Shown in pieces: positions 6,025 to 11,454 of a DNA stretch of 64,000 nt. A program made the position numbers and the translations under genes. Where the stretch lies: positions 1 to 64,000 of IMG/VR virus record IMGVR_UViG_3300020470_003365, one strand, 5' to 3'. Source of the stretch: a virus. Each line of letters starts with the position of its first letter. The first letter of the stretch is position 1. Below the pieces are notes generated by a model. The model ran no database searches, was not told where the DNA came from, and was given only the letters and a program-made list of their open reading frames with translations.

Positions 6025-6744
6025 ATGCCTTTACCAAAGATTGCGACTCCGACATATGAGTTGGAACTACCTTCTACCCAAAAGAAAGTTAGATATAGAC
6101 CTTTTTTAGTTAAAGAAGAAAAGGTATTGTTGATAGCTCTTGAAAGTGAAGATACAAAAGAAATTACTAATGCTATTAGAGCAGTAATTAAAAGTTGTGT
6201 TTTGACAAAGGGTATTAAGGTTGAGACATTACCTACTTTTGATATAGAGTATTTGTTTTTGAACATTCGTGGTAAGTCTGTAGGTGAAACTATTGAAGTT
6301 AATTTAATATGTCCTGATGATGGTGTTACTGAGGTTAAAAAGAATATTCCTATTGATAATATTAAAATTCAACGCACTGATGGTCATACCAATCAGATAA
6401 AACTTGATGATAATATTATGATGGAATTGAAGTATCCTTCCTTAGATCAATTTATTAAAAATAATTTTGATTTTACTGAAGGAAATCAAATGGATCAATC
6501 ATTTGAATTGATTGGTACATGTATTGATAAGATCTATACTGAAGAAGAGGTATGGACAGCATCTGATTGTACTAAGAAAGAGTTGACTGAATTTCTTGAG
6601 TCAATGAATTCATCTCAGTTTAAAGAGATTGAAAATTTCTTTGAAACCATGCCCAAATTATCTCATACTATTAAGGTTAAAAATCCTAATACTGAAAAAG
6701 AAAGTGATGTGGTTCTTGAAGGGTTAGCATCTTTTTTCGCTTAG
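6025..6744 (+). CDS. gp26: Baseplate hub assembly protein gp26
   Basis: The 239-residue product matches the T4 baseplate (gp26-type) family: LPKIATPTYELELPSTQKKVRYRPFLVKEEKVLL at residues 3-36, TLPTFDIEYLFLNIRGKSVGE near 73-93, and a C-terminal acidic helical part (KKELTEFLESMNSSQF). T4 gp26 is required for hub assembly. Its last codons contain the slippery heptamer TTTTTTC just before the stop, with a co-directional ORF in the -1 frame. That is the arrangement of tail assembly chaperones that produce a frameshift fusion upstream of the tape-measure gene. Confidence 0.82.
   Translation: MPLPKIATPTYELELPSTQKKVRYRPFLVKEEKVLLIALESEDTKEITNAIRAVIKSCVLTKGIKVETLPTFDIEYLFLNIRGKSVGETIEVNLICPDDGVTEVKKNIPIDNIKIQRTDGHTNQIKLDDNIMMELKYPSLDQFIKNNFDFTEGNQMDQSFELIGTCIDKIYTEEEVWTASDCTKKELTEFLESMNSSQFKEIENFFETMPKLSHTIKVKNPNTEKESDVVLEGLASFFA
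6732..6738 (+). other. Candidate -1 ribosomal frameshift site (TTTTTTC)
   Basis: The heptamer fits X XXY YYZ in the gp26 frame (zero-frame codons TTT TTC, then GCT TAG). A -1 slip would avoid the stop at 6742-6744 and read through 6923, appending about 62 residues beginning RLALVHLSLEGYF after the two slipped Phe codons. Confidence 0.55.
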
Positions 6745-6749
6745 CTCTA

Positions 6750-6923
6750 GTGCATTTGAGTCTTGAGGGTTACTTCAAACTCAATTTTTCGTTAATGCAA
6801 TATCATAAATATAGTTTGACTGAAATTGAAAATATGATGCCGTGGGAGCGAGACATTTATGTGATACTTCTTCAACAACATCTTGAAGAGGAAGAAAGAA
6901 AGCAAAAGCAACAACAATCTTAA
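6750..6923 (+). CDS. Small hub-assembly partner, GTG start or -1 frameshift extension of gp26
   Basis: From the GTG at 6750 the ORF gives 57 residues: HLSLEGYFKLNFSL, then YHKYSLTEIENMMPWERDIY, then an acidic/Gln-rich end (LEEEERKQKQQQS). The MPWERDIY...LL pattern resembles the second part of phage tail assembly chaperones, where aromatic-Glu motifs precede a helix. The reading frame is open back through the slippery site, so the product may be made mainly as a gp26 fusion. No good Shine-Dalgarno precedes the GTG, which favours frameshifting. It ends 1 nt before the ATG of the tape-measure-like gene. Confidence 0.65.
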   Translation: MHLSLEGYFKLNFSLMQYHKYSLTEIENMMPWERDIYVILLQQHLEEEERKQKQQQS

Positions 6924-9314
6924 ATGGCCGTTAGTAGTCCTCCAATTTTAAAGATACTATCAGATCTTGATATTGATTTGATGGATATTGATAATGATGT
7001 GGATTATTTACGTGCATTGATGGAAGCAACTAACATGCTTACCATTACTAATGCAAGTGATAAAAGGATACCAATATTACAAGAAGAAATACAAAGAGTA
7101 AGAGCAGATAGAAAAAAAGCAGATCCTAAGTTTAAAGAAAGAAAAACAAAAATAAACATAGGCAGTTTTTTAGGTAGAGATACTGATGATGAATCTCAAA
7201 AACTTTTGGGGCCTGCTAAAGATAGTAAAGAACAAAAGAAGAAAGCAGCATCAGGTGGGTTAGTTGATACTATTAATGTAATTGCAGAAACAGTTGCAAG
7301 AATAGAAGATACATTAATAAGTCAGAAAAAACTTGATGAAGATAAACAAAAAAATGATAAACAACTTTTAGAGAATTTAAAGAGAGATGATGAGGAGAGT
7401 AGATTAGGTAAAGTAACTGGATTTTTAAAGAAGACAGGTGATAAAATCATTGCTCCTGTTCAAAATATCTTTGGTCAGATATTTGGTTTTATAAAGAAAT
7501 TAATTTTAGGAAAAATATTTTTAAACATACTTGATTGGTTTGGTAATCCTGCTAATTCTGGTAAGATTGATAGTATTGTTAAATTTTTTAGTAATAACTG
7601 GACTAAATTATTATCTTTATATCTTATCTTTGGAACAGGTTTAGGTAGATTTGTACAATTCATAACCAAAGTAGCAATAAAAGGTACAATTAAATTAATT
7701 GCACTTCTTGCTAAGCTTGCATGGGCAAAGAAGATTAAGGGAGCATCAGGAATTGCTAAATTTTTTGGTGGTAAAAAAGGAAAAATTTTAGGAACTGCTC
7801 TCACTGCTGTAGGTACAGTTGGTATGTATGCTGGCATGAATAAGATGTTAGGTGGTGGTGAAGAAGAACCACAGAAGTTTAATAAGGGTGGAAAGGTTCG
7901 TGGACAAGGTGATAAGGATACTGTTCCTGCTATGCTAACTCCTGGTGAGTTTGTTATGTCTAAGGGTGCTGTACAGCAGTATGGTATTGATACAATGGAG
8001 GCAATGAATGCAGCTGCTGGTGGAACAAATGTCCCTGTCTTGATGCCAGATAAGAAACGCAAAGGGTTTCCTGGTGGTGGTAGGCCTTATGCTCCTACTT
8101 CTAACACAGGTGTTGTAACTGATCCAAAAGAGAGGCAACAACAAGAAGCATATATGCTTAAGTATGTTAATGAAGAAAGAGCATTTCAGGGATTACCTCC
8201 TTTAACTAATCTAACTTATGCTCCAAATGTGGAACTTACAAAGATGAGGGGTCCAGGTCCAAGAACAAATGAAATATCAAATACTAATATAGATTTTGAT
8301 AAGGGTTTCAAGACCACAACAAAATCAAAAACAGTCGATGGTAAAACCACTTTTTCTGGAGGAATGAGTTTAATAACACAGGAAGATAGGGATAAGTTTT
8401 TTGCAGAAAACCCACATGCAAAAGCATTATTAGATCTTAAGGATCAGGTTGAACTGGATAATTTAGGTGCTGATATATCTGCTAGTGCTAAAATGAAGGG
8501 TGGTGGTTTAGTTCAGCATCTTAATAATGGAGGAAGAGTATATACGCAAGAAGAAGCAAATGCTATGGCGGCTTCTTTTGATAACCGACTATTGGCACAA
8601 ATTCAAAAGTTAAGAAATGAGAGAGATCAACTTTCAAATAATAGAGGTTCTGATGGTAAACTATCAAGAAAGGATAGGAAGAGATGGAATGAGATCTCAG
8701 CAGAAATAGCTGCAATCCAGAAAAAAATAATATCAAGTCAGAAATCGACTACCACACCTACAGTAACACCTAAAAAACCAAGAAGTGGTGGATTTGGATT
8801 GAAACGTATGATTGGTGGTGCTGCTGATCATCTTACAGGCAATCTATTTGACTTCGATAAACGAAGTGGTGGTGGACTCATAAGAAAGACTGCAGGTGCT
8901 CTTGCCCGTCCTATGGGTGGTCTTGCTGATATGTTGACAGGTAATCTATTTGACTTTGACAATAGGAGTGGTGGTGGACTCATAAGAAAGACTGCTAATG
9001 CAATTGGTGGTTTGTTTGGTGGTTCTAAACCTAGTGCTGATAAAGTAATGGCTAAAGAACCTAAGATAAAGGAAATAAAAATTCCTGCTGAAGGTCTTGA
9101 TAGTCTTTTGATAAAGATAGCTTCTAAGCAAGATATTAAAACACCAGTAGGTCAACCCTCATTGTCGGGGCCAAAGATTACTGTGATTCCAGAAAATAAA
9201 CAATTCAATACTGCTCCTAATTCATCAAATCCTGATGGCGGTAAGTCTATTCCTAAGTTTGATGTTGGTTATGGGTCGCAAAGAAAAATGAAGCAACTAG
9301 GAATATCAAGATAA
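6924..9314 (+). CDS. Large tape-measure-like baseplate hub/tail protein
   Basis: A 796-residue product. The N-terminal third is charged and helical. Residues about 180-300 are strongly hydrophobic (IFGFIKKLILGKIFLNIL, LYLIFGTGLGRFVQFI). Around residues 321-347 comes KGGKVRGQGDKDTVPAML followed by TPGEFVMSK, a motif common in phage tape-measure proteins. The C-terminal part carries two copies of a TGNLFDFD..RSGGGLIRKTA unit, 34 residues apart. Being first after gp26 and its frameshift partner also fits a tape measure or the gp29-equivalent. The next protein shares the FDFD motif, so the roles may be split between the two. Confidence 0.7.
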   Translation: MAVSSPPILKILSDLDIDLMDIDNDVDYLRALMEATNMLTITNASDKRIPILQEEIQRVRADRKKADPKFKERKTKINIGSFLGRDTDDESQKLLGPAKDSKEQKKKAASGGLVDTINVIAETVARIEDTLISQKKLDEDKQKNDKQLLENLKRDDEESRLGKVTGFLKKTGDKIIAPVQNIFGQIFGFIKKLILGKIFLNILDWFGNPANSGKIDSIVKFFSNNWTKLLSLYLIFGTGLGRFVQFITKVAIKGTIKLIALLAKLAWAKKIKGASGIAKFFGGKKGKILGTALTAVGTVGMYAGMNKMLGGGEEEPQKFNKGGKVRGQGDKDTVPAMLTPGEFVMSKGAVQQYGIDTMEAMNAAAGGTNVPVLMPDKKRKGFPGGGRPYAPTSNTGVVTDPKERQQQEAYMLKYVNEERAFQGLPPLTNLTYAPNVELTKMRGPGPRTNEISNTNIDFDKGFKTTTKSKTVDGKTTFSGGMSLITQEDRDKFFAENPHAKALLDLKDQVELDNLGADISASAKMKGGGLVQHLNNGGRVYTQEEANAMAASFDNRLLAQIQKLRNERDQLSNNRGSDGKLSRKDRKRWNEISAEIAAIQKKIISSQKSTTTPTVTPKKPRSGGFGLKRMIGGAADHLTGNLFDFDKRSGGGLIRKTAGALARPMGGLADMLTGNLFDFDNRSGGGLIRKTANAIGGLFGGSKPSADKVMAKEPKIKEIKIPAEGLDSLLIKIASKQDIKTPVGQPSLSGPKITVIPENKQFNTAPNSSNPDGGKSIPKFDVGYGSQRKMKQLGISR
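8835..8993 (+). repeat. Direct repeat pair encoding TGNLFDFD...SGGGLIRKTA
   Basis: Two copies of about 57 bp (8835-8891 and 8937-8993), spaced 102 bp start to start, encode near-identical peptides in frame. It is an internal in-gene duplication. Confidence 0.8.
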
Positions 9315-9315
9315 G

Positions 9316-11454
9316 ATGGCAATATTAAAAGCACTTCCAGGTTCTGCAAAGATTAATGGGAAACCTGTTAAAGGTAAACTCATTCAGATAAAAAAATCTG
9401 TTATTAATATTGATAAATTTCTTGAAAAAAGAAAGGAAAGATCAATAAAAGAGATTGAAAAGGCTCAAAAACAAAATCAAAATTTTAAAAGAAAAAAGAA
9501 GGAAGAAAAGTTAGAAGAACCTAAGAAGGAATGGAAGAAATTAGTTCCAAAGAAAATTCCTGGTTTAAGTTTTTTAGATAGTATTAAAAAATTTATTAGT
9601 GGATGGATATTTGGATTCATTGCAATTAAATTGATACCATTATTACCTAGTTTAATTCCTGTGGTAATTAACTTAGGTAAGATGGTTAACTTCATTATTG
9701 ATATTGGTGGTAAATTTTTGAATGGGTTTATAAGTTTTGTAGATTTTGGAGTTAAAGCTTCAGAGGCAACCATTGGATTCATAAAGAATCTTGGTGGGGA
9801 AAAATTTGCTGAGAATTTTGAAAAATTTGCCAAGACATTTGGTTTTGTTATTGATAGTATGTTAATACTTGGTGCTTTAATGATTAAGGATGCACTAAGT
9901 GGTGATAGTGGATTTGGAGTAGGGGATTTACTTGGAAAGAAAGGACTTGGAAAATTCTTTGGAAAGAAAGCAGTAGCATCAGGACTTACTAAAACAGCAG
10001 CAAGCACTACAGCAACAGCAGGTGGAGCAGCAGGTGGTACTGCATCAACAGCAGCAGGTATAGGAGCAGGTGCAGCTGCTGGTATTGTAGCTGGTGCTGG
10101 TCTTCTTGCTTCTGGATTGGGTGAGGGTATCTTCCAAATGTTGAGGGAAGCTCGAAAGCAAGAAGCGGATAGTTATAAAAGGTTTAAAGATAAGGGTTGG
10201 TGGAACCCCATGAAATATTTCTGGGGTGCTGCACATTTAGGACAGAAATTTAGTAATTTCCAGATACAAATTCTGGGTACTATATTAGATATTGTTGGAG
10301 CACCATTTAGATATATCATAGAGTTAATAAGATATCCTTTCTTAAGTAAAGAAGATAAGAAAAAGCAACAGGAAAATCTTGCTAAATTTGATGCAAGAAT
10401 CCGAGAAAGTTTTAGAGAAATAGTAAATACATTGTCTTTGGGAATGCTTGCTAAAGAGAAGGGTTCATTTGGTAGTTTGTTTGGGAAGAAAGGAACTGAT
10501 GCGATGGGTTATACCAAGGATGGTAAATCAGTAACAGAGAAGAAAGATGTCACCCCTGCTGTAGCCCCAACCCCCAAGACTACTGATGGAACCTTCAGAT
10601 CTAATGTCAAGGATCCTGTATCAGATCGCATCGGTGGAACATTTCATAAAAATAAAGGTGCTATTATTGGTGGTGCATTAGGTTCTGCTCTTGGTCCTCT
10701 TGGTGTTGTTGCAGGTGCTGCTATTGGTAGTAGCATTCAGAAAAGAGGAATCAAAGGTGTTATTGGAGGTGCTGCTGATTTTGTGACAGGTGGTATGTTT
10801 GATTTTGATAAGAAGAATCCCAAAGGAAGTCCAAAAGGTTTTGGAATTAAAAGAGTAATGGGTGGCGTTGCTGATTGGGCAACAATGGGTCTTACTGATT
10901 TTGATAAGAGGGGTGCTGGTATTTTACAATTTAATCCTATAAGTGGTGGTAAAGATAAGAGATGGGGTAAAGAATATAAAATACCTCAACGTATACTGGA
11001 TCATAGAGATAAAGTAAATAAATTGAGGAATATGTCTCAATTTGCAACCAAAGACGGAAGAACTATTAGTATGGTTGATATGCTTACGTCAGGTGATAGA
11101 AGTCAGATTGAAGAAGCATTGTATATGCAACGTGCAAAGGAAAGAGATCCATCAGAAGGACATTCTGATTGGGTTGGTAATCCAAAATATGAAGCAGAAA
11201 CTCTTAAATATTTAAAACCACCATCAACAAGTGAGTCACCACTCAAAATGGGTACACAAGAAGTTAAATTTGATGAAGAGTTGTTGGGTGTGAGTGCATC
11301 TTATGAAACTAATGGTGGGCAGAAAGAGTATACAATCTATGCTCCTACCACTCAGATAAATATGTTACCAGGTAATAATTCTGGTCAGGTAGTTACTAGT
11401 GGAGCAACAGTATCTTCTGGAGATGATCCTTATGAAATTTTAGAGAAGGGATAA
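9316..11454 (+). CDS. Second large tape-measure-like tail/hub protein
   Basis: A 712-residue product that begins with a very basic, Lys-rich helical region (residues 25-80, KRKKKEEKLEEPKKEWKK). Hydrophobic segments follow (FISGWIFGFIAIKLIPLLPSL near 96-116), then an Ala/Gly/Thr low-complexity membrane-like stretch at about 230-270. Glycine-zipper sequence (GAIIGGALGSALGPLGVVAG) lies near residues 450-470. VIGGAADFVTGGMFDFDKK and a related VMGGVADW...FDKRG copy link it to the preceding protein. One base separates the two genes. Its hydrophobic and Gly-rich content suggests a tail-lumen or membrane-penetrating protein; function is inferred. Confidence 0.65.
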   Translation: MAILKALPGSAKINGKPVKGKLIQIKKSVINIDKFLEKRKERSIKEIEKAQKQNQNFKRKKKEEKLEEPKKEWKKLVPKKIPGLSFLDSIKKFISGWIFGFIAIKLIPLLPSLIPVVINLGKMVNFIIDIGGKFLNGFISFVDFGVKASEATIGFIKNLGGEKFAENFEKFAKTFGFVIDSMLILGALMIKDALSGDSGFGVGDLLGKKGLGKFFGKKAVASGLTKTAASTTATAGGAAGGTASTAAGIGAGAAAGIVAGAGLLASGLGEGIFQMLREARKQEADSYKRFKDKGWWNPMKYFWGAAHLGQKFSNFQIQILGTILDIVGAPFRYIIELIRYPFLSKEDKKKQQENLAKFDARIRESFREIVNTLSLGMLAKEKGSFGSLFGKKGTDAMGYTKDGKSVTEKKDVTPAVAPTPKTTDGTFRSNVKDPVSDRIGGTFHKNKGAIIGGALGSALGPLGVVAGAAIGSSIQKRGIKGVIGGAADFVTGGMFDFDKKNPKGSPKGFGIKRVMGGVADWATMGLTDFDKRGAGILQFNPISGGKDKRWGKEYKIPQRILDHRDKVNKLRNMSQFATKDGRTISMVDMLTSGDRSQIEEALYMQRAKERDPSEGHSDWVGNPKYEAETLKYLKPPSTSESPLKMGTQEVKFDEELLGVSASYETNGGQKEYTIYAPTTQINMLPGNNSGQVVTSGATVSSGDDPYEILEKG

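Follow-up and report, generated by a model that had tools for sequence, protein, structure and literature searches.

A conserved, probable −1 frameshift site at the end of gene 26 in T4-like phages and a predicted gp26-51 fusion protein

Does the 3′ end of gene 26 in a cyanophage-like virus give rise to one protein or to two? The question arises from a 64,000-nucleotide stretch of DNA (positions 1 to 64,000 of IMG/VR virus record IMGVR_UViG_3300020470_003365; hereafter the window), in which a slippery heptamer lies just ahead of the stop codon of gene 26 and a −1 frame stays open beyond it. We consider it very likely that gp26 and a fusion protein, gp26-51, are the T4-superfamily equivalent of lambda gpG and gpGT, the longer form being made by −1 frameshifting. 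It is also very likely, though inferred from sequence alone, that the virus of the window and most of its T4-like relatives use this frameshift. Both the occurrence and the rate of the frameshift are inferred, and the absence of protein-level evidence for the fusion product counts against our reading.

Gene 26 and the frame that overlaps its end

The locus has the following features.
6025..6744, + strand: gene 26, encoding the unshifted, gpG-like product of 239 aa (PF12322 T4_baseplate, 1.8e-76; phrog_150 baseplate hub, 2.2e-80)
6718..6723, + strand: Shine-Dalgarno-like GAAGGG, 8 nt 5′ of the heptamer, a candidate 5′ stimulator
6732..6738, + strand: slippery heptamer T_TTT_TTC, in phase, conserved in 168 distinct loci and in other T4-like families
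6742..6744, + strand: zero-frame stop TAG of gene 26, one codon past the slip site
6738..6923, + strand: −1 extension corresponding to the C-terminal domain of gp51, 61 aa RLALVHLSLEGYFKLNFSLMQYHKYSLTEIENMMPWERDIYVILLQQHLEEEERKQKQQQS plus stop (phrog_634, 5.6e-29; phrog_150 positions 244-281, 8.4e-5)
6924..9314, + strand: next gene, 796 aa, tape-measure-like by weak matches, a possible client

Gene 26 ends with the codons TCT TTT TTC GCT TAG, and the heptamer is in the phase X_XXY_YYZ. The −1 frame has no stop codon from 6720 until 6921-6923, continues for 59 codons past the zero-frame stop, and is followed immediately by ATG 6924 of the next gene, which matches phrog_35029 (3e-70; unknown function) and, weakly, tape measure families (best 1.8e-7). 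TTTTTTC by itself is common by chance, with 22 copies on both strands of the 67.6-kb AT-rich record. Unlike the bare heptamer, the gp26 heptamer is not chance-like in its phase, place and conservation. Among the 42 window genes modelled, only gp26 has both a slippery heptamer in phase close to its 3′ end and a −1 frame of at least 40 codons past the stop. The sole start codon near the slip site is GTG 6750, and no Shine-Dalgarno sequence precedes it.

In the mechanism that we propose, most ribosomes would terminate at the TAG at 6742 and release gp26 of 239 aa, and some would slip by −1 on T_TTT_TTC to make gp26-51, a predicted fusion of about 299 aa that has the gp51 domain as its C-terminal part.

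A preliminary description of this locus had stated that TTTTTTC is in the correct phase at the end of gp26 and that the −1 frame is open through 6923, just before a tape-measure-like gene. Both statements held, the likeness of that gene resting on weak matches. The distance from the heptamer to where the stop codon ends, given there as nine bases, did not hold; it is six. Three points had escaped that description: the −1 frame encodes the known gp51 domain, T4 gp51 is this fusion in a single frame, and a conserved Shine-Dalgarno-like element lies upstream of the heptamer.

Conservation of the slippery site and its surroundings

T_TTT_TTN was present in phase in all 168 distinct loci, as TTTTTTC in 159, TTTTTTT in seven and TTTTTTA in two. 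These loci consist of 95 close to the window, with a median pairwise protein identity of 74%, and those from two further scans; three viral scans using distant queries gave few loci. The site is also present in Cr30, phiN3, phiM9, Atu_ph04, IC12, Astolliot, BUCT608, Aeh1, AS-zj, KVP40, Bakedbeans and XG4. Outside cyanophages, the hosts of T4-like phages with the site are Caulobacter, Sinorhizobium, Agrobacterium, Rhizobium, Pseudomonas, Stenotrophomonas, Aeromonas, Vibrio and Pseudoalteromonas.

Codon choice at the site is strict. All 95 close loci have TTTTTTC: the first Phe codon is always TTT, and the second is always TTC, compared with 285/1085 (26%) at the other Phe codons of gene 26. The codon before Phe-Phe, be it one for Ser, Ala, Gly or Asp, has T as its third base in 95/95. 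We left these counts without a probability because the 95 loci are related to each other. Phe-Phe is also kept at the protein level in the close loci. When synonymous conservation was calculated per codon over 211 columns, both Phe codons of the heptamer were among the most constrained; a few other columns equalled or exceeded them, and the plot alone is not decisive. The gp26 stop codon is TAG in 84 of the 95 close loci, compared with 8 of 42 window genes. The −1 codons that overlap the stop might account for this preference, or the stop itself might take part in slippage.

Exceptions were found in the Ackermannviridae examined and in two Vibrio phages, K357 and VPALA (loci L015, L130, L131, L123 and L132), where the junction is the non-canonical A ATT TTC or A CTT TTC and the −1 ORF is kept. 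These might slip non-canonically or use some other coupling, and they count against our reading. Separately, it was observed that the zero-frame stop adjoins the heptamer in S-CREM2 (L127) and Astolliot (L121), as TTT TTC TAG and TTT TTC TAA, and gp26 terminates right at the slip site.

Upstream of the heptamer by 8 nt, a Glu-Gly pair is spelled with GAGG or AGGG in 94/95 close loci, compared with only 6/25 Glu-Gly pairs elsewhere in these genes, and a Shine-Dalgarno-like tetramer occupies this position in 152/168 loci. The element is more than 20 nt from any downstream start, too far, and is therefore unsuited to initiation. GAAGGG is likely a helper of the tandem −1 slippage, as far as can be inferred from sequence alone. 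In E. coli dnaX, a Shine-Dalgarno-like element lies 5′ of the slippery heptamer. The gp26 element is at a similar distance; in contrast to dnaX, however, the gp26 heptamer is T_TTT_TTC rather than A_AAA_AAG, and no conserved 3′ stem-loop was found. RNAalifold predicted no pair in 32 loci, and the local hairpin downstream of the site in the window had a z of −1.59. Therefore, we do not claim a 3′ stimulator, and the lack of a conserved 3′ structure counts against our reading.

The gp51 domain, T4 gp51 and rival explanations

One match of the −1 frame is to phrog_634 ('baseplate hub assembly catalyst'), over the last half of that family, and another is to C-terminal columns 244-281 of phrog_150, which is the gp26 family. 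Pfam and NCBIfam gave no credible family for the −1 ORF, and the extension is predicted to be helical. A separate gp51 is annotated in P-SSM2, S-PM2, Cr30, phiM9 and KVP40, always in the −1 frame, and in P-SSM7 the annotation is shortened to 31 codons. gp51 is present but unannotated in Aeh1, AS-zj, S-CAM1 and ACG-2014b. In the last two, it was probably missed through the absence of a conventional start near the beginning of the frame. As a side observation, the annotation of S-CAM1, ACG-2014b and similar cyanophage records shows an intergenic gap of ~180 nt (L242:904-1089, L243:904-1085).

Protein-level constraint on the −1 frame begins immediately after the slip, ahead of any start. The first codon there encodes Arg in 151/166 loci. 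Codon 4 is ATG in 95 of the 166 loci, a Leu codon in 69 and Phe in two, and it encodes Leu in all 54 loci in which the first ATG, GTG or TTG comes at codon 7 or later. At codon 4, it is a hydrophobic residue that is conserved and not a start codon. Furthermore, ATG, GTG and TTG are absent within 14 codons in 18/168 loci, and inspection showed that Aeh1, AS-zj, IC12 and Astolliot likewise have no such start.

Comparison with T4 connects the two segments. Both match the profiles of the T4 gp26/gp51 family (PF12322, phrog_150, phrog_634). In T4, the match to PF12322 covers residues 1-206 of 208 in gp26 (8.8e-64) and residues 1-201 of 249 in gp51 (3.9e-52), and the two are therefore paralogues. 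T4 gp51 has a further ~48 residues, which are covered by phrog_634. A profile built of predicted fusions only aligned without a break across the junction with gp51 of RB49 (columns 23-291, 7.6e-20) and with that of T4 (columns 75-283, 3.5e-14). T4 gp51 is a gp26-like protein with a gp51 tail in frame, and it is homologous to the predicted fusion.

The window's pair thus has the PF12322 family and the C-terminal gp51 domain in common with T4, whereas in T4 genes 26 and 51 are on opposite strands and gene 26 has neither a slippery site nor a −1 ORF. The T4-lineage genes 26 examined do not have the heptamer and read GAG TTC TTT (T4), CAA TTT TTA (KP15) or AGT TTC CTT (RB49) instead; the short form in these three has a gene 26 of its own, which still ends in Phe-Phe or Phe-Leu. 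T4 and its close relatives make the equivalent proteins from paralogous genes, the short one from gene 26 and the fused one, in a single frame, from gene 51. The two-protein output is probably common to both groups, with different routes to it, frameshift or two genes. Among the phages examined, the frameshift form occurs in many families and the split form only in the T4 lineage. A bolder reading, which we also hold likely, is that the T4 superfamily ancestrally made gp26 and gp26-51 by −1 frameshifting in gene 26, that gene 26 was then duplicated in the T4 lineage, with the shifted form becoming fixed as gene 51, and that gp51 is of the gpGT type and T4 no exception. The direction of this change, from frameshift to two genes, is likely as well, but it is inferred from the distribution without a tree.

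Could a separate small gp51 be made without any frameshift, by termination and reinitiation at an ATG or GTG just past the gp26 stop? In favour of this, ATG lies two bases past the stop in many loci (the 95/166 with ATG at codon 4), stop and start overlap as TAATG or TGATG in KVP40, Cr30 and phiM9, and a separate gp51 has been deposited for P-SSM2, S-PM2 and others. However, reinitiation leaves the invariant heptamer and its codon choice unexplained, and it has no usable nearby start in the 18 loci and the four phages mentioned above; the window itself offers only GTG 6750. The residues ahead of the start are conserved as protein, and the T4-type gp51 is itself a fusion. We regard reinitiation as very unlikely and exclude it as the shared mechanism; coupled reinitiation might still add some free gp51 where an ATG is well placed.

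The remaining alternatives concern the T run itself. RNA polymerase, rather than the ribosome, could slip on T6 and add one U, which would give the same fusion frame, and runs of T6-T7 are homopolymeric in an AT-rich genome. However, the reported bacterial cases involve A or T runs about nine long (PMC5009743), most loci have only six T, and the phase of the heptamer and the conserved Shine-Dalgarno-like element indicate the ribosome, so that this explanation is also very unlikely. Alternatively, the heptamer could be conserved merely through a conserved C-terminal Phe-Phe of gp26, since FF is conserved in T4 gp26 too, despite the lack of a −1 gp51 frame there. This is all but excluded by the exclusive TTC at the second Phe and T before the pair, by the other codons that T4-lineage genes choose for FF, and by the absence from all 168 loci of TTC TTT or xxC TTT TTC with an intact gp51 frame. 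Ribosomal −1 frameshifting remains the reading that we prefer.

Comparison with frameshifted tail chaperones, and the putative client

Two features by which gpG/gpGT systems are recognized are met: a slippery heptamer that lies in phase close to where the first ORF ends (168/168 distinct loci and other families), and an overlapping −1 ORF that is continuous with the first and under protein-level selection. As in lambda gpG/gpGT and P2 gpE/gpE+E′, a short protein would be accompanied by a −1 extended form, with the shift a few codons ahead of the zero-frame stop. P2 E+E′ uses T_TTT_TTG, which is also the heptamer of phiM9 gene 26, and the P2 genes precede the tape measure gene, a position that the window's pair may share, the genes after it being tape-measure-like by weak matches. 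On the other hand, sequence homology of the lambda and P2 proteins to gp26/gp51 is undetectable, gp26 is larger with extra parts beyond the chaperone-like N-terminal domain, and only the gp26 site has the conserved upstream Shine-Dalgarno-like element. Profiles of the gp51 domain and P2 E′ gave no significant match when compared directly; this counts against our reading, and homology with P2 E′ is therefore not claimed. P2 gpE+E′ is annotated as frameshifted, whereas gp26-51 is not so annotated in the records viewed. According to a 2016 review (PMC5009743), all long-tailed phages 'except T4' have conserved G-T frameshifting. No report of a gp26-51 frameshift was found in the open-licence literature searched, and it may have been described elsewhere. 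Our results suggest that 'except T4' would hold only for T4's own lineage, where two genes do the job.

The fold of gp26 was modelled with AlphaFold2 (pLDDT 85.7) from the unshifted translation; there is no model of the fusion. Residues 1-96 of the model resemble solved tail assembly chaperones over ~85-90 aligned residues, with Z-scores of 7.8 for HK97 gp14 (2ob9), 8.0 for 3fgx, 7.3 for YqbN (3klu) and 5.5 for 5ir0; the next unrelated row had a Z of 2.4. Foldseek alone gave no significant match of the model in the PDB, and no sequence-similar solved structure was found for gp26 or T4 gp51. The Z-scores are middling, and a chaperone fold of gp26, which rests on a predicted model, is suggestive only.

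By analogy with gpG/gpGT, gp26 and gp26-51 would be tail assembly chaperones that are not part of the virion; gp26 would coat a hub protein or the tape measure, with the gp51 tail linking it to the next tail component. In a review of the T4 tail (PMC3004832), gp26 and gp51 are both counted among the hub assembly chaperones, and gp51 is described as needed for assembly and not in the particle. Genetic work cited in that review assigns gp26 to the hub, and the absence of gp26 from virions is disputed. If the bolder reading is true, gp51, a long-puzzling essential hub assembly protein of T4, is a gpGT-type chaperone. The client may be a tape-measure-like or hub protein, with candidates directly downstream, but this is held by analogy and only tentatively. 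In Cr30, the annotated tape measure gene lies two genes downstream of gp51.

The preliminary description had proposed that a −1 frameshift joins gp26 to the frame downstream, to be checked by conservation of the heptamer and the −1 ORF and to be refuted by a heptamer that is not conserved or by relatives with a clear Shine-Dalgarno and ATG for a separate small gene. The heptamer proved conserved in phase in 168/168 loci; in some relatives the −1 ORF does have an ATG close to its beginning, and a separately started gp51 may also be made there, but many have none. Comparative evidence strongly supports the frameshift. Its view of a chaperone pair is supported by the fold similarity and by the listing of T4 gp26 and gp51 as hub-assembly chaperones, whereas its large hub or tape-measure client rests on analogy only, without client data.

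Two minor observations were made on neighbouring genes and names. One Acinetobacter phage record names gp51 'tape measure protein assembly chaperone'. In the window, two large tape-measure-like genes lie back to back (6924-9314 and 9316-11454), and their matches are mostly to families of unknown function.
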